Shown: in pieces, positions 6,245 to 28,565 of the stretch
Layout: every line of letters begins with the position of its first letter
Numbering within the stretch: the stretch's first letter is position 1
From: a virus
IMG/VR virus record: IMGVR_UViG_3300024999_000238
Coordinates: 1 to 36,921 of that record
DNA: 36,921 bases
Strand: one strand, 5' to 3'
Notes under the pieces: generated by a model
Databases searched by the model: none
What the model was told of the DNA's origin: nothing
The model's input: only the letters and a program-made list of their open reading frames with translations
Position numbers and translations under genes: made by a program

Positions 6245-6311
6245 ATTTTTTTAATCTCTTGAACTGGAACAATATTCCTCTTATATATGAATATGCGGGG
6301 TGGAAATATTT

Positions 6312-6509
6312 ATGACAGAAATTACAACGAAGGAAGTAGCTTTAAATATACCTGCAGTTGATACATGGCCCATAACGCACCTTCGGAAGTGCTGCAAGAA
6401 AAACAAAATTAAAGGATACACAAAGATGGACCGGGAGCAGTTAGTGCAGGCTGTCAAGAAGTTTATAGACTCTCTTTTACCGACAGAACTTGATGAGGAT
6501 GATGAATGA
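6312..6509 (+). CDS. Small SAP/Rho-N-like protein (65 aa)
   Basis: The ATG at 6312 is preferred over an in-frame GTG at 6300 because GGGGTGG at 6297-6303 is correctly spaced for it. Residues 21-51 (THLRKCCKKNKIKGYTKMDR and following) form a helix-extended loop-helix pattern like SAP or Rho N-terminal domains, which bind nucleic acid. The C-terminus is acidic (PTELDEDDE). The end overlaps the next gene by 4 bp (ATGA). The fold is inferred from pattern only. Confidence 0.6.
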   Translation: MTEITTKEVALNIPAVDTWPITHLRKCCKKNKIKGYTKMDREQLVQAVKKFIDSLLPTELDEDDE

Positions 6510-6793
6510 CAGGGTTAATAATCAGAGAGGAAGTATGTTGGCTGGCCTTGGCTGTGTGTATTTTGACCGAGATAACTCCCGAGGAATCATTTCAGCGCAT
6601 AGCGCCAGTAGGTATGACCGGGGGAAAGAATATCCGTCTAACTGAGGACGTTATCAGGGAAATGGTTCGGCTCAAGAAAAGCATGTCTTACGAGGCACTT
6701 GGCAAATATTACGGCGTGTCGGCGAACACCGCATATCGGAATATTAAGAAATACAACGAAAGGGTGAAGGTGGATGACAGGGGGAAAGCGTGA
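6506..6793 (+). CDS. Helix-turn-helix DNA-binding protein (95 aa)
   Basis: The C-terminal half (MSYEALGKYYGVSANTAYRN) reads as a helix-turn-helix of the resolvase/homeodomain-like type: a helix, a tight turn at YGVS and a recognition helix. The N-terminus is hydrophobic and less typical. It could be a small regulator in the accessory cluster or a terminase-small-like DNA binder. It overlaps the preceding gene by 4 bp and the following gene by 20 bp. Confidence 0.6.
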   Translation: MTGLIIREEVCWLALAVCILTEITPEESFQRIAPVGMTGGKNIRLTEDVIREMVRLKKSMSYEALGKYYGVSANTAYRNIKKYNERVKVDDRGKA

Positions 6794-7310
6794 TTTGCAG
6801 GCTGATTTAGGGATTTACGGGAAAGTAACGCCGGGGCCATGGGAGATAGATAAAATTGATTCCTTTAATGGTAGTGGTAAGTCAGAAATTTTCTACATCA
6901 TTAAGAGCGAACACGCCTGCAATAAGGATAAGATTGTCGCTGATATGATACTACACGGTGCGGATGCTAACTTTATTATTGCTGCCCGCGAAGGTTGGCC
7001 GGAAGCTATCAGCCGGGCAATTGCGGCAGAGGCAGAGGTTGAGAGACTAAAAAATACTATGAGTAGCTTTAAGTTAAAATTAGATAGACTTAGAAAGCTA
7101 CGGAAATTAAAGGTAGACTATGATGAATATAAATTGCAGGCAGAGGTTGAGCGGTTACAGAAAGCACTAACTGAAATTAGCAACTGGCGGGAAGAATGCG
7201 GAAAAGAAGCTGATAGTTTGGGCGCAGGATATATGACTTTTAGCGACGTTGAGGAATGGGATAACTTAGAGCGTTTTGCTAGGGAGGCACTCAACGATGC
7301 AAACAGCTAA
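6774..7310 (+). CDS. Ea22-like phage protein (178 aa)
   Basis: The combination VTPGPWEID near residue 18 and HGADANFIIAAREGWPEAIS in the middle is the hallmark of the Ea22/Ead family, encoded in accessory regions of many temperate phages. The usual helical EAEVERLK coiled coil follows. The biochemical role of the family is not established; lambda Ea22 has been linked to the lysis-lysogeny balance. ATG start with a purine-rich AAGGGTGAAGG upstream. Confidence 0.75.
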   Translation: MTGGKRDLQADLGIYGKVTPGPWEIDKIDSFNGSGKSEIFYIIKSEHACNKDKIVADMILHGADANFIIAAREGWPEAISRAIAAEAEVERLKNTMSSFKLKLDRLRKLRKLKVDYDEYKLQAEVERLQKALTEISNWREECGKEADSLGAGYMTFSDVEEWDNLERFAREALNDANS

Positions 7311-7506
7311 ACTACAAGGCACACGGCGCATAGTTCGCCGTCCCTGCCTAATCAGACAGTTAGCCAGGCGGGTTGACATGGCCTTTACGGCAATACAGGA
7401 GTGGTTTGAGGGTGAGGACAAACTGGTATCCAAGGCCGTGGGGTATGGGGTTGTGATACTGGCGGGGGTATATATGGTGGGGCAGATCGTGAGGTGGTTA
7501 CTATAG
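7297..7506 (+). CDS. Small single-pass membrane protein (69 aa)
   Basis: The ATG at 7297 is preferred over an in-frame TTG at 7276 because AGGGAGG at 7281-7287 fits it. The N-terminus is very basic and the C-terminal 22 residues (GYGVVILAGVYMVGQIVRWL) form one transmembrane helix. By the positive-inside rule the N-terminus should be cytoplasmic. Function unknown; small inner-membrane proteins in such clusters can act in exclusion or regulation, but nothing here shows it. Confidence 0.6.
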   Translation: MQTAKLQGTRRIVRRPCLIRQLARRVDMAFTAIQEWFEGEDKLVSKAVGYGVVILAGVYMVGQIVRWLL

Positions 7507-7703
7507 CAGATCATAACTTAACTGTAAACAAATTAAAGGCCGAGTTGAGCACGGCTAAAACTAAAGTCAGGTCATTGCGGAAGAAAAATAAGCAGTTGCG
7601 GGAGACGGTTGAAACACTAACGGAACTAATGAGCCACTGCGAAAGGTGTTCCGAGTTGGTTGATACTGCCTTGAAGGAATGTAAAAAGGTCTATGGAGGC
7701 TAG
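7494..7703 (+). CDS. Small coiled-coil protein (69 aa)
   Basis: GTG start inside the end of the previous gene. Residues 8-48 form a basic coiled coil (KLKAELSTAKTKVRSLRKKN and onwards). The C-terminus has CERCSELVDTALKEC, three cysteines that could bind metal or form disulfides. No family recognised. It ends 4 bp before the Spo0E-like gene. Confidence 0.55.
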   Translation: MVTIADHNLTVNKLKAELSTAKTKVRSLRKKNKQLRETVETLTELMSHCERCSELVDTALKECKKVYGG

Positions 7704-7707
7704 GGTA

Positions 7708-7854
7708 ATGACGGACCGGGATTTAGCGAAGTTGAGGCTGAGGATTGAGCGACTGCGGAAAAAGCTTTACATTTGTCCACCGGAGGAGCTTTTGAAGACT
7801 TCCCAGAAGCTGGATAAGCTGATTGTTGAGTATCAGAAGTATGGATATTCTTAG
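7708..7854 (+). CDS. Spo0E-like aspartyl-phosphate phosphatase, phage-borne
   Basis: ATG at 7708 follows GGAGG at 7695-7699. The 48-residue product is two helices: LAKLRLRIERLRKKLY, a short loop, then LLKTSQKLDKLIVEYQK. The second helix carries the SQKLDKLI signature (SxxLDxLI) of Spo0E-like proteins. Family members in spore-formers dephosphorylate Spo0A~P and so delay or block sporulation. Length (48 versus about 50-85 aa) and two-helix layout fit. The gene is embedded among phage accessory genes and overlaps the next start by 14 bp. If functional, it would let the phage hold its host out of sporulation. Confidence 0.8.
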   Translation: MTDRDLAKLRLRIERLRKKLYICPPEELLKTSQKLDKLIVEYQKYGYS

Positions 7855-8068
7855 GCGTATAGATGTTGCCTTGCTGAGAATGGAGAAGGCGGGGCACAAG
7901 GATACCGCACACTATAACAACCTAAAGGACAAGCGCGAACACGTTGCTTATGGCGCAGAATATGCGGCCAAAGACGTAACAGAGGAAAATATTAAAAGTG
8001 TCGGTGGGTTATTTGCAGTAATTAGTAGATTGTATAGATTGAGGCCATTTAATACCGATTTCAAATGA
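7841..8068 (+). CDS. Hypothetical helical protein (75 aa)
   Basis: The ATG at 7841 lies in the last codons of the Spo0E-like gene; an in-frame TTG at 7823 is an alternative. The upstream Shine-Dalgarno is weak, so translation is probably coupled. The product is mostly helical and basic, with no recognisable motif. It ends just before the replication initiator. Confidence 0.55.
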   Translation: MDILRRIDVALLRMEKAGHKDTAHYNNLKDKREHVAYGAEYAAKDVTEENIKSVGGLFAVISRLYRLRPFNTDFK

Positions 8069-8085
8069 TGCTTAGGGGTGCAAAT

Positions 8086-8922
8086 ATGAACTATATCAAA
8101 GAACTTAACGCATTCTATGATTGGCTCGAAACAAACGTACTATCACTATCTGGCATTGCTTTATGGCACGCATTGATGCACATAAACAATAAAACAGCAT
8201 GGATGGATGAGTTTGCTGTGGCCGTATCGGTGCTATGCGTTAAGTCTGGACTTGCACCCAGGACTGTATCATCTGCCAGGAACGAACTAGCGCAGAAGGG
8301 CAGAATTAAGTGGCGACAGCGCAAAGGAAGCCAAGCTGCTTTATATTCAATAATACCGTTTTATATAGAAGAAAAGTCGGCACAAAAGCAGGCATCTAAT
8401 GCCTACAAATGTGCCGACAAAAAGACAGTAGATAATTTGTCGGCATTAGATGCCGACAACCATGCCGACAACCATGCCGACAACCATGCCGACAACCATG
8501 CCGACAACCATGCCACATTAAATAAACTAAACGAAACTAAACTAAAAGATCATAATGATCATGATCACGAAGAGGAAAGTTTCGTTAAAGTTTACGAACA
8601 GGAATTTGGTAGGCTTATTAGTCCTAACGAAATGGGGAATCTGCAAAGCTATGTCGATGGCGGCATGGATCAATCAGTTATTTGTGAGGCAATTCGGAGA
8701 ACAAGATTACATGGCAAGACAAGATTAAGCTATACCGTGACCATACTAAACGACTGGGTAGATAACCAAGTAATCACAATGGACGGGGTAGCAAGGGTAG
8801 ATGCAGAATTTAAGAAAAAGAAAGCCAGTAAATCAAGCTCGAGCCCCCAAACAGACACCTGGGGAAATCCCAAAAACAAGGAAAAGGAAAAAGAAATACT
8901 GAGACAACTTTATAAAAATTAG
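8086..8922 (+). CDS. Replication initiation protein (HTH plus DnaD-like domain)
   Basis: The ATG at 8086 is chosen over ATGs at 8065 and 8068 because AGGGGTG at 8073-8079 is correctly spaced. The N-terminal 100 residues are a winged-helix-like domain (SGIALWHALMHI, LAPRTVSSARNELAQKGRIK), as in Firmicute phage replisome organisers. The C-terminal region (about 175-240, FVKVYEQEFGRLISPNE) is a DnaD/DnaB_2-like domain. Between them a low-complexity linker repeats ADNH five times; this part of the DNA looks like the origin. The DnaC-like loader follows 8 bp later, the classic initiator-loader pair. Confidence 0.85.
   Translation: MNYIKELNAFYDWLETNVLSLSGIALWHALMHINNKTAWMDEFAVAVSVLCVKSGLAPRTVSSARNELAQKGRIKWRQRKGSQAALYSIIPFYIEEKSAQKQASNAYKCADKKTVDNLSALDADNHADNHADNHADNHADNHATLNKLNETKLKDHNDHDHEEESFVKVYEQEFGRLISPNEMGNLQSYVDGGMDQSVICEAIRRTRLHGKTRLSYTVTILNDWVDNQVITMDGVARVDAEFKKKKASKSSSSPQTDTWGNPKNKEKEKEILRQLYKN
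8376..8560. other. Putative phage replication origin (iterons, inverted repeats, AT-rich stretch)
   Basis: Five perfect tandem copies of the 12-mer GCCGACAACCAT occupy 8452-8511. The core TGCCGAC occurs six times forward (8412, 8451, 8463, 8475, 8487, 8499) and twice inverted (8376, 8439). TTGTCGGCAT at 8437-8446 and ATGCCGACAA at 8450-8459 form a perfect 10-bp inverted repeat; AGGCAT/ATGCCT (8390-8404) forms another. An AT-rich stretch with three GATC sites follows (about 8515-8560). Iterons plus an AT-rich segment inside the initiator gene is the lambda O/ori arrangement. Confidence 0.65.
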
Positions 8923-8930
8923 GTGATTCT

Positions 8931-9620
8931 ATGTGTGATATATGCCAAGGCCGTGGAATTGTTTTGGTTGATGGAAACACAGCAAAACGCTGTAACTGCA
9001 TGATTAAGCGGCAGATTATTAACCGATTTAAGAATTCCAAGCTAAGTAAATCAATGCTCCAAATGACCTTTGAAAATTTTAATTTTATCTACTACGGCGA
9101 CAAGGTATTTGCGGCTAAAAAGACACTTGAAGCAGCTAAAGCCTTTGTTAAAAGCGTTATTGAAGGCCAGGCCGATGGCCTTATTTTGACCGGAAAAACT
9201 GGCCGGGGAAAGACCTATCTTGCCTGCTGCATAGCTAACGAGTTGCTTAGAAAAAACGTCGCTACTCTGTTTTGTGTGGTGCCGGACTTGCTTGACCAAA
9301 TCAAAGACACCTATAACAAAGACAGCGAATACAGCGAGCTTGATATTATCGACACGGCCAAGGAAGTAGCGGTGTTAATCCTGGATGACCTTGGAGCGCA
9401 CCAGTATACCGAGTGGGCGAGAAGTAAGTTATTTACAATCCTTAACTACAGAATTAACCATAACCTGCCAACCGTTATCACTACAAACCTTAGCGTGGAA
9501 GATGTTGGTGAGGTAATTGGGGATCGTGCTGCAAGTAGGATTATTCAGCTTTGTCAGCCGTACAAGCTTGAAGCAGATACTGATATTCGGGTACAGATGA
9601 GGTTGAATAAAGCAAAATAA
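8931..9620 (+). CDS. DnaC/DnaI-like helicase loader (AAA+ ATPase)
   Basis: A 229-residue protein with an N-terminal Cys cluster (C2, C5, C21, C23) like the zinc-binding N-domain of DnaI-type loaders. An AAA+ core follows: Walker A TGKTGRGKT near residue 87, Walker B LILDDLG near 149, sensor ITTNLS near 184 and an arginine-finger-like GDRAASRI near 195. It would load the replicative helicase onto the origin opened by the upstream initiator. ATG start at 8931, 8 bp after that gene. Confidence 0.9.
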   Translation: MCDICQGRGIVLVDGNTAKRCNCMIKRQIINRFKNSKLSKSMLQMTFENFNFIYYGDKVFAAKKTLEAAKAFVKSVIEGQADGLILTGKTGRGKTYLACCIANELLRKNVATLFCVVPDLLDQIKDTYNKDSEYSELDIIDTAKEVAVLILDDLGAHQYTEWARSKLFTILNYRINHNLPTVITTNLSVEDVGEVIGDRAASRIIQLCQPYKLEADTDIRVQMRLNKAK

Positions 9621-9653: not shown

Positions 9654-10913
9654 ATTAGAGAAATCATTGTTGACAACTTTGCCGGTGGTGGCGGGGCATC
9701 GACCGGCATTGAACTGGTCATTGGTCGGAGTGTAGACATAGCCATAAATCATGATCCGGTAGCAATCGCTATGCACAAAGTAAATCATCCCGGTACAGAA
9801 CACTTTTGTGAATCTGTTTGGGACGTGGATCCGCGACAAGCGGTAAAAGGTAGACCTGTTGCGCTGTGCTGGCTGAGTCCTGACTGTAAGCACTTTTCCA
9901 AAGCCAAAGGCGGAAAACCTGTAGAAAAACATATCCGTGGGCTTGCCTGGGTGGCAGTCAGGTGGGCGGCAACAGTTAGACCACGGGTGATCATCCTTGA
10001 AAACGTTGAAGAATTCAAAACCTGGGGCCCGCTGATGGATGGAAAACCTGACCCCAAGCAAAAGGGACGGACGTTCAATGTATTCATAAACGCTCTTAGG
10101 CGGCAAGGTTATCAAGTTGAGTATAAAGAGCTTAGGGCGTGTGACTATGGGGCGCCAACAATACGGAAAAGGTTTTTCTTGATAGCTAGGTGCGACGGTA
10201 GGCCGATAGTGTGGCCAGTGCCAACTCACGGTAACCCTGAGAGTTTGGATGTCAAAAGCGGCAGGTTGAAACCATGGAGAATGGCAGCTGAAATCATTGA
10301 TTGGTCGTTACCCTGCCCGAGCATTTTTGAACGCAAAAAGCCACTAGCTGAAAACACGATGCGGCGTATTGCCCGGGGAATTCAGAAGTTTGTCATAAAC
10401 AATCCCCATCCCTTTATCGTGCAGGTGAATCATAGCGGGGCTAAACATCATTATTGCCGGCCATTAGATAAGCCGCTATCAACTATCACATCTAAGCACG
10501 GATTTGGGATAGTAGCACCTGTAATAGCAAGGCAATTTGGACAATCCATAGGACATTCGATAGAGGAACCTTTAGGGACGGTTACTGCTGGAGGCATGGG
10601 TAAATCGCAATTAGTTACTGCTTTTATAGCCAAACACTACGGCGGCGGTTACACAGGACCTGGTAGTAGTTTAGGGGAGTCACTGCATACTGTTACAACC
10701 AAGGATCACAGTGCTCTGGTGACAGCGTTTTTATCAAAGTACCATGGCGAAACTTCACCGACTGGAGCGCGAGGACAGCAACTAGACGAACCTATTCGGA
10801 CAGTAGACAGGTTATTGATACGAAAGGTTTTAAGACTCCTGAATACAAGATTAAGAAAAAGATACTTCTGTTTAGGTACCCGGAACTGGACTTTACGGAG
10901 GAATAATTGGTGA
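9654..10913 (+). CDS. C5-cytosine DNA methyltransferase, C-terminally truncated, apparent ATT start
   Basis: Motif I (FAGGGGASTGIE) lies at the N-terminus, followed by the catalytic-loop variant SPDCKHFSKAKGGKP, ENVEEF (motif VI) and TIRKRFFLIA (motif VIII). Then come the PL.T(I/V)T repeats typical of phage members. Motif I is reached in this frame only from upstream of the ATG at 9771, yet no ATG, GTG or TTG lies between the preceding stop (9618-9620) and motif I. The best start is ATT at 9654, 7 nt after AGGGGG (within AGGGGGTGAG, 9641-9650). After EPIRTVD (about 10806) the sequence no longer resembles the family: the C-terminal target-recognition end and motifs IX-X are missing and about 35 unrelated residues follow. 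Likely inactive or altered. Confidence 0.8.
   Translation: MREIIVDNFAGGGGASTGIELVIGRSVDIAINHDPVAIAMHKVNHPGTEHFCESVWDVDPRQAVKGRPVALCWLSPDCKHFSKAKGGKPVEKHIRGLAWVAVRWAATVRPRVIILENVEEFKTWGPLMDGKPDPKQKGRTFNVFINALRRQGYQVEYKELRACDYGAPTIRKRFFLIARCDGRPIVWPVPTHGNPESLDVKSGRLKPWRMAAEIIDWSLPCPSIFERKKPLAENTMRRIARGIQKFVINNPHPFIVQVNHSGAKHHYCRPLDKPLSTITSKHGFGIVAPVIARQFGQSIGHSIEEPLGTVTAGGMGKSQLVTAFIAKHYGGGYTGPGSSLGESLHTVTTKDHSALVTAFLSKYHGETSPTGARGQQLDEPIRTVDRLLIRKVLRLLNTRLRKRYFCLGTRNWTLRRNNW
10811..10906 (+). pseudogene. 3' remnant of a DUF1064-type phage nuclease gene
   Basis: In the frame one base off the methyltransferase, 10811-10906 encodes VIDTKGFKTPEYKIKKKILL followed by FRYPELDFTEE and a stop. This is the usual end of DUF1064 (PF06356) phage endonuclease-like proteins: a conserved DVKG, a TPE(Y/F)K.KKK helix and an aromatic-Pro tail. 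The N-terminal part is absent and the frame runs directly back into the methyltransferase, so a deletion joined the two genes near 10805-10811. Recognition is from memory of the family pattern. Confidence 0.65.
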
Positions 10914-12947: not shown

Positions 12948-12973
12948 AAAACACATATTCGGGGGTGGATTTG

Positions 12974-13435
12974 ATGCAGGAATTGATTAAGGAGTACAAG
13001 CAGTCGATAAAAAACTTACGCACGGCTAAAGTGATACCGGTGGAGTGTAGCAGCATGATCTCAGATGCGAACTTTGCCATTGAGATTATGGAGACCGGAA
13101 AGGTACCTGGATCTACTTGGAGAGCTGGTAGAATACGCAAAGACGAAAGAGAAATATCTGTAGACCCTGCACAAATGGCTAAATATATTGCAAATACAAT
13201 TACTACAGATTCTGCCCCCGAAGCTGTTTTAGATTTACTTGATATCCTAATGACTAATCTAACAGAGCGCGAAAGATACGCTTTTGATTTAGTCAGGGGC
13301 AGGGGTTATTCCTTCGCTCAGGCAGGTACAATAATGGGCTGCAATAAGGGAAGTGTACAGAATTTTGTAAGTAGGGCAGAAAAAAAGATTCAGGTTGTCG
13401 TACGAAAACAGCATATATATAAGGGGGTAGTTTGA
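12974..13435 (+). CDS. Sigma-70 region-4-like phage transcription regulator (153 aa)
   Basis: The C-terminal third (LTERERYAFDLVRGRGYSFA, then GCNKGSVQNFVSRAEKKI) is a sigma region 4-type helix-turn-helix. Such proteins (ArpU/RinA-like or sigma-like) sit at the end of the early cluster in Firmicute phages and switch on late genes. The N-terminal half is helical and has no clear sigma region 2. ATG at 12974 is preferred over GTG at 12965 because GGGGGTGG (12961-12968) suits it. Its stop overlaps the next ATG. Position just before terminator and packaging genes supports late-gene activation. Confidence 0.7.
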   Translation: MQELIKEYKQSIKNLRTAKVIPVECSSMISDANFAIEIMETGKVPGSTWRAGRIRKDEREISVDPAQMAKYIANTITTDSAPEAVLDLLDILMTNLTERERYAFDLVRGRGYSFAQAGTIMGCNKGSVQNFVSRAEKKIQVVVRKQHIYKGVV

Positions 13436-27704: not shown

Positions 27705-27722
27705 AATTTGGAGGTGCTGCCA

Positions 27723-28565
27723 ATGTTATTGTCGAAAGCATGGAAACTTTACGAAGCGGACAAGCGTCTTTTAGGATACTCGCTACATACGCTTAAAGCC
27801 TATCAACTGCAGTCTAACTTGTTAATTAGGCACATAGGCGACGTCGAAACTGAGGAAGTTACCCATGTAGCACTTAAAGAGTATTTGATTAAGCAGGACC
27901 ATCTCAAACCTGCCAGTATCGGACATAGAATAAAGTTTATACGCGCCTTCTTTAGATACCTACATGAAGAAGGTTTCATTGAACGCAATGTTTCCTCGAA
28001 ACTGAAGGAACCAAAGCAGGGCGCCAGGATCCCAAAGGCGCTGAACACTGAAGAAGTGGAATTGCTACGGGATGCCTGCAGTAGTTCGCTGGAAAAGGCG
28101 CTCACTGAATTTTTCTACGCCACAGGATGTCGGATAGGCGAAGTTTTTGGACTGAACATAAAAGACATTAATTGGCAGACAAGATCCGCTCTTGTCATTG
28201 GCAAGGGTAACAAACAGCGCGAAGTGTATTTCACTGAGAGGTGCAGGATATGGCTGCAGAAATATTTACAGAGTCGGACCGATGAACATGAAGCCCTGTT
28301 TGTAACAGTCAGAAAACCTATCCGACGTATGTCGATAGCCAGAATCAGGGAGATAGTGAAAGATATCGCCAAACACTCTGAGGTGGAAGTAAATGTCTAT
28401 CCGCACAGATGGCGGCATACGACAGCAACTACGATGTTGGAGAATGGGGCTCCATTACATGTTATTATGTCCAGCATGGGGCACGCCCGTCCCAGTACCA
28501 CGATGATTTATGCCCAGCTCTCCGGGGAGCGTCGGAGGCAGGAGTATAATAAATATTTTAGGTAG
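27723..28565 (+). CDS. int: Tyrosine recombinase/integrase
   Basis: ATG at 27723, 6 nt after GGAGGTG. The 280-residue protein has the N-terminal SAM-like DNA-binding domain (KAWKLYEADKRLLGYSLHTL) and a complete catalytic domain: R137 in GCRIGEV, K161 in GKGNKQREV, H228 and R231 in HRWRH, H254 in GHARPS and the nucleophile Y263. There is no AP2-like arm-binding domain, so it resembles XerC/D in size more than large phage integrases. It would integrate and excise the phage or invert or move a local segment. It lies inside the tail gene cluster, with its own promoter and terminator. Confidence 0.93.
   Translation: MLLSKAWKLYEADKRLLGYSLHTLKAYQLQSNLLIRHIGDVETEEVTHVALKEYLIKQDHLKPASIGHRIKFIRAFFRYLHEEGFIERNVSSKLKEPKQGARIPKALNTEEVELLRDACSSSLEKALTEFFYATGCRIGEVFGLNIKDINWQTRSALVIGKGNKQREVYFTERCRIWLQKYLQSRTDEHEALFVTVRKPIRRMSIARIREIVKDIAKHSEVEVNVYPHRWRHTTATTMLENGAPLHVIMSSMGHARPSTTMIYAQLSGERRRQEYNKYFR

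Follow-up and report, generated by a model that had tools for sequence, protein, structure and literature searches.

A compact Spo0E-like protein encoded among the DNA-replication genes of a phage

On the evidence of its sequence and a structure model, the product of a 48-codon phage gene is a compact, phage-encoded protein of the Spo0E-like aspartyl-phosphate phosphatase family. The gene lies in the window analyzed here, the whole 36,921-nt stretch of virus record IMGVR_UViG_3300024999_000238, close upstream of genes for DnaD- and DnaC-like replication proteins. We lean towards a role in which this protein is made with the early replication proteins and removes Spo0A~P, thereby delaying host sporulation during phage replication.

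Gene and family assignment

The frame on the plus strand (Table 1) encodes MTDRDLAKLRLRIERLRKKLYICPPEELLKTSQKLDKLIVEYQKYGYS and is a genuine gene with a good ribosome-binding site. An alternative in-frame ATG at position 7693 overlaps the Shine-Dalgarno sequence, and the start at 7708 was therefore preferred. Compared with two phage relatives, the gene differs at codon positions 1, 2 and 3 by 7/3/19 and 8/4/17 nucleotides (dN/dS 0.05 and 0.09), and dN/dS among the window and relatives L102 and L002 ranged from 0.05 to 0.10 (Nei-Gojobori method, 38 codons), ratios that are approximate because dS is high. The mostly third-position differences and the low dN/dS indicate that this is no chance ORF but a translated gene whose protein is under selection, and in related phages the purifying selection on it is strong.

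Table 1. Features of the Spo0E-like gene and its neighbors in the window
Feature	Position	Strand	Evidence or remark
Phage early protein of unknown function (phrog_722/phrog_1667-like)	6774..7310	+	Relatives adjoin Spo0E genes in L167 and L179
Small protein with hydrophobic C-terminal stretch (by eye)	7276..7506	+	Relatives in L002, L087, L102, L167, L183 and L089
Small coiled-coil protein, directly upstream	7494..7703	+	End overlaps Shine-Dalgarno region; coiled-coil matches only sub-threshold
Shine-Dalgarno GGAGG	7695..7699	+	8 nt 5' of ATG, within 3' end of preceding gene; read from sequence
Spo0E-like protein, 48 aa	7708..7854	+	ORF; PF09388 E 5.2e-8; dN/dS 0.05-0.10 among phage relatives; AlphaFold hairpin, pLDDT 92
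Inter-helix connector, residues 23-24	7774..7779	+	About six residues shorter than canonical; AlphaFold helices and anchor-to-S spacing
Signature SQKLDKLI, residues 32-39	7801..7824	+	SxxxD = S32, D36; D36 codon 7813-7815
Small protein without family match	7841..8068	+	ATG 7841 overlaps end of Spo0E gene
DnaD-like replication initiation protein/helicase loader	8065..8922	+	phrog_186 E 1.7e-32; PF07261 E 2.8e-14
DnaC-like helicase loader	8931..9620	+	phrog_50 E 1.4e-58; PF01695 E 2.8e-20

The original prediction had placed the protein in the Spo0E-like family by its SQKLDKLI signature and had named a PF09388 profile search as a check, with the lack of a Spo0E hit counting against the assignment. 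This search returned a match of 33.2 bits (E 5.2e-8) against a curated cut-off of 23 bits, and the assignment is borne out by profile, signature, fold and relatives alike. The local alignment joins residues 26-44 to profile positions 24-42, namely helix 2 and the signature, a partial coverage that is probably due to the shortened connector. The phage relatives scored 24.9 to 36.7 bits, and the alignment spans the full model (positions 1-42) in relatives L002, L087/L099, L136 and L137. Five scrambled 48-mers of similar composition gave no PF09388 match; these controls were scrambled manually and match the amino-acid content of the protein only roughly. Across a 23-sequence alignment, S32, D36 and I39 are invariant, and the hydrophobic residues that flank the signature positions are preserved. 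Published work gives SxxxD as the mark of the family and reports that function in B. subtilis depends critically on its aspartate (PMC11115286).

AlphaFold predicted an antiparallel two-helix hairpin (helices at residues 3-22 and 25-46) with a pLDDT of 92 and a pTM of 0.70. The B. anthracis Spo0E-like phosphatase 2c0s aligns with this model over 45 residues at 1.7 Å and 27% identity (Z 5.9), a match found among unrelated hairpins. A Foldseek search of the model against the PDB gave no match at E ≤ 0.001, a hairpin this short being non-discriminating, and the best profile matches among PDB chains were at chance level (2bzb, E 0.57). Helical hairpins are common, and the fold alone is little proof of family. 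It is hardly credible, nevertheless, that the product resembles Spo0E only as a coiled coil would by chance, or that it is a functionless fragment in decay: this reading could draw on the restricted Pfam match and the commonness of such hairpins, but it is opposed by the low dN/dS, the silent scrambles, the full-length PF09388 matches of several relatives and a position conserved in several phage lineages.

Neither PHROGs nor NCBIfam held a family for the 48-aa protein, and tblastn with it against 50,697 phage records found no match. With the canonical Spo0E consensus as query, two annotated phage homologues were recovered. The expectation that so short a gene would escape standard gene callers was not supported, since phages vB_BpsM-61 and vB_GthS_PK2.1 have annotated homologues that are just as short (47 and 52 aa). 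We also considered a Rap/RRNPP phosphatase, that is, a large TPR protein with a peptide-encoding neighbor. This candidate was ruled out by the 48-residue hairpin, and no TPR-family match was present in it or in the nine neighbors scanned.

Genomic neighborhood

The presumed phage setting is supported by the gene content of the window, which includes terminase, portal, capsid, tape measure and integrase genes as well as the DnaD/DnaC-type replication genes. From position 6300 to 8922, same-strand genes overlap or almost touch. From this gene order, we infer that the Spo0E-like gene sits in a single early replication operon and is expressed with the timing of that operon. In a consensus-based scan, promoter and terminator sites were no more frequent than in shuffled sequences, and no promoter of its own was seen above shuffle level for the Spo0E-like gene.

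Several other features of the window are worth recording. The protein encoded at 7276-7506, which has a conserved EW.EG(E/K)D motif, is found repeatedly in this phage group, whether or not a Spo0E gene is present. Within the DnaD-like gene, a perfect 12-bp tandem repeat of 5.4 copies (ATGCCGACAACC, positions 8450-8514) encodes NHAD repeats, and the relative L102 has the same NHAD repeats; the array could be an origin-like set of iterons. The DNA cytosine methyltransferase-like frame at 9655-10913 has a conserved N-terminal sequence, IIVDNFAGGGGASTGIE, located 5' of the first ATG/GTG/TTG (9771), and an ATT at about 9655 has a purine-rich stretch 5' of it; translation may therefore begin at an unusual start codon such as this ATT. 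A positive-control sigma-like factor (12965-13435; phrog_1190, NCBIfam NF005385 below cut-off) is a candidate late-gene activator. Finally, the tyrosine integrase gene (27708-28565) has the head genes on one side and the tail tape measure gene on the other, an uncommon location for a phage integrase.

Relatives in other phages and likely host

A survey of related phages, as the original prediction had proposed, uncovered close relatives of the Spo0E-like protein in three other phage lineages (L002, L087/L099 and L101/L102). In L002 and L087, the Spo0E gene stands between a methyltransferase-like gene, whose end it overlaps, and a DnaD-like gene, and in L102 one ORF of 163 aa intervenes between the Spo0E and DnaD-like genes. 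A replication-initiation gene follows shortly 3' of the Spo0E gene in the window, L002, L087, L102, L167, L169 and L179. L183, whose DnaC is 87% identical to that of the window, has no Spo0E gene, and its methyltransferase-like and DnaD-like genes are about 25 nt apart. Absence from the matching slot in L183 thus marks the Spo0E gene as an accessory gene at a preferred site. Of the 88 related phage records, four had a PF09388 match, and in two of these the connector was canonical; the other 84 had none, and therefore the gene is probably dispensable, although many of the records are fragments.

Scanning genomes with the phage alignment retrieved mostly records of Pelotomaculum, Peptococcaceae and other Firmicutes. 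In the class (Desulfotomaculia) of one Pelotomaculum MAG, the phage-built Spo0E profile matched in 76 of 113 genomes and Spo0A_C in 105. Strong Spo0E matches in genomes G125, G110 and G116 stood in phage-like neighborhoods. Among the loci with strong matches, L166 is near an integrase and a ParB-like gene, L167 is beside relatives of two small early genes of the window, and L169 is upstream of DnaD- and DnaC-like genes; the strong match in G156 (L168) has metabolic neighbors and no phage genes. G125, one of the three prophage-bearing genomes, gave no Spo0A match and may be incomplete. The terminase of the window had no relative in the 113 genomes, and the host was therefore assigned from the Spo0E gene and the small genes around it. 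Judging from these relatives, the host is likely a spore-forming member of Desulfotomaculia or a close relative. Single genomes of this class, such as G162 and G206, hold up to seven Spo0E-like profile matches, which suggests that the family has expanded there.

Proposed role

Proteins of the Spo0E family inactivate Spo0A, the master regulator of sporulation, in other settings. To a phage, a sporulating host means either a dead end or a refuge. As the tight same-strand gene row suggests, the Spo0E-like protein would be produced alongside the early DNA-replication proteins. By analogy with its family, the hairpin would engage the host Spo0A at its receiver domain, and D36 of the SxxxD signature would promote loss of the phosphoryl group from Spo0A~P, the presumed target. 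With less Spo0A~P, sporulation would be delayed while the phage replicates, so that its genome would not be trapped in a dormant cell, and any effects of Spo0A on host or phage genes would be lifted. In C. difficile, Spo0E binds Spo0A and represses sporulation, and spo0E mutants sporulate more (PMC11115286). The devI gene of ICEBs1 delays sporulation, probably via Spo0A, when the element is active (PMC8032392), and Spo0A halts phi29 (PMC9437464).

The same phosphatase activity on Spo0A~P might instead serve mainly the lysogen, with a prophage-expressed protein tuning entry into sporulation to the benefit of the carrier cell. The integrase gene of the window, the homologous genes within prophage-like regions of bacterial genomes and the host fitness benefit that ICEBs1 devI confers through delayed sporulation (PMC8032392) would all suit this reading, which we nonetheless consider unlikely. 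The gene lies inside a replication operon, normally silent in a prophage, and shows no promoter of its own above shuffle level; moreover, the ICEBs1 benefit is reported to require activation of the element (PMC8032392). Given its placement in the replication operon, the gene is more plausibly expressed during lytic replication than confined to a role in the lysogen, and of the two outcomes originally envisaged, keeping the infected cell productive is thereby favored over tuning spore entry of the lysogen.

The connector between the two helices may bear on the choice of partner. From the conserved helix-1 anchor to the signature serine, the window protein has a spacing of 19 residues, as do its three phage relatives and two of the prophage copies; the Desulfotomaculia-class paralogues examined have 20-24 and canonical proteins 24-25, and the window connector is about six residues shorter than that of canonical Spo0E. 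In C. difficile, the Spo0E helices are modeled against Spo0A, with RstA contacts in and near the linker (PMC11115286). By analogy, a trimmed linker would presumably leave Spo0A binding intact and alter or abolish RstA-type binding.

A short connector could also alter the target. The Spo0E fold and signature might be retained for another partner, be it an RRNPP regulator (for example, RstA) or some response regulator other than Spo0A, with the main effect on motility, quorum sensing or another program. C. difficile Spo0E does bind RstA as well, near the helix linker (PMC11115286), the up to seven Spo0E-profile matches per Desulfotomaculia genome leave room for targets to have split, and the connector is unusually short. 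We regard this alternative as quite unlikely, given that S32, D36 and the flanking hydrophobic residues are kept and that the modeled RstA contacts fall in and near the very linker that is shortened here, making RstA-type binding less likely than Spo0A binding.

Returning to removal of Spo0A~P during replication, a broader and rather doubtful extension is that Desulfotomaculia phages possess their own minimal-connector Spo0E class, which would reside in the replication operon, couple the start of replication to Spo0A~P removal and have its RstA-like linker contacts trimmed. A 23-row tree built on 48 residues, with 13 of 20 inner branches unresolved, did not place the phage copies relative to the chromosomal ones. 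If the proposed role is correct, few conceivable controls of the sporulation choice would be simpler than removal of Spo0A~P by a phage protein of 48 residues. The lineage links a Spo0E-like gene to a replication module and to poorly studied anaerobic spore-formers, and its natural trimmed-connector variants offer a small set for separating the parts of Spo0E needed for Spo0A from those needed for other partners.

Comparison with known systems

Spo0E-like genes have been described before in phages of Bacillus, Geobacillus and Brevibacillus, and a part for phage spo0E in sporulation hijacking has been proposed. Brevibacillus phage SecTim467 gp70 is a Spo0E-like protein (PMC4909266). Bacillus phage vB_BpsM-61 (AYP68783) and Geobacillus phage vB_GthS_PK2.1 (UYL93922) likewise carry a Spo0E-like gene in a phage of a spore-former, among early recombination genes. 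Their proteins have the canonical long connector and their genes are beside XRE regulator and ERF recombinase genes, whereas the connector is short and the neighbors are of the DnaD/DnaC type in the window. Geobacillus phage TP-84 (L171) also apparently encodes a Spo0E-like protein, annotated only as hypothetical (MGKRLQKLIEQQRKKMIDLGMTKGFNHPDTIRASQELDKLINKAMKKQKPGK). A survey of sporulation genes in gut phages does not include spo0E in its main text (PMC10294663). The term 'sporulation-hijacking' was proposed for phage quorum-sensing systems located beside spo0E, abrB or rap (PMC10075063); those loci and ours share a phage copy of a sporulation-initiation regulator, but no adjacent RRNPP receptor was found among the neighboring genes scanned here.

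With chromosomal Spo0E, YisI and YnzD (PF09388), the window protein shares a two-helix hairpin of 40-85 residues, the SxxxD signature and a profile match above cut-off; it differs in being phage-encoded and in its shorter connector (19 vs 24-25 residues by anchor spacing). Closer in form are the short-connector paralogues of Desulfotomaculia genomes (e.g., L141 and L142), which have the same signature and are nearly as short (spacing 20). The phage copies remain the shortest, and paralogue L168 differs in having metabolic neighbors. What is new here is a compact, short-connector Spo0E kept next to phage DNA-replication genes, a modest structural twist on a known family.
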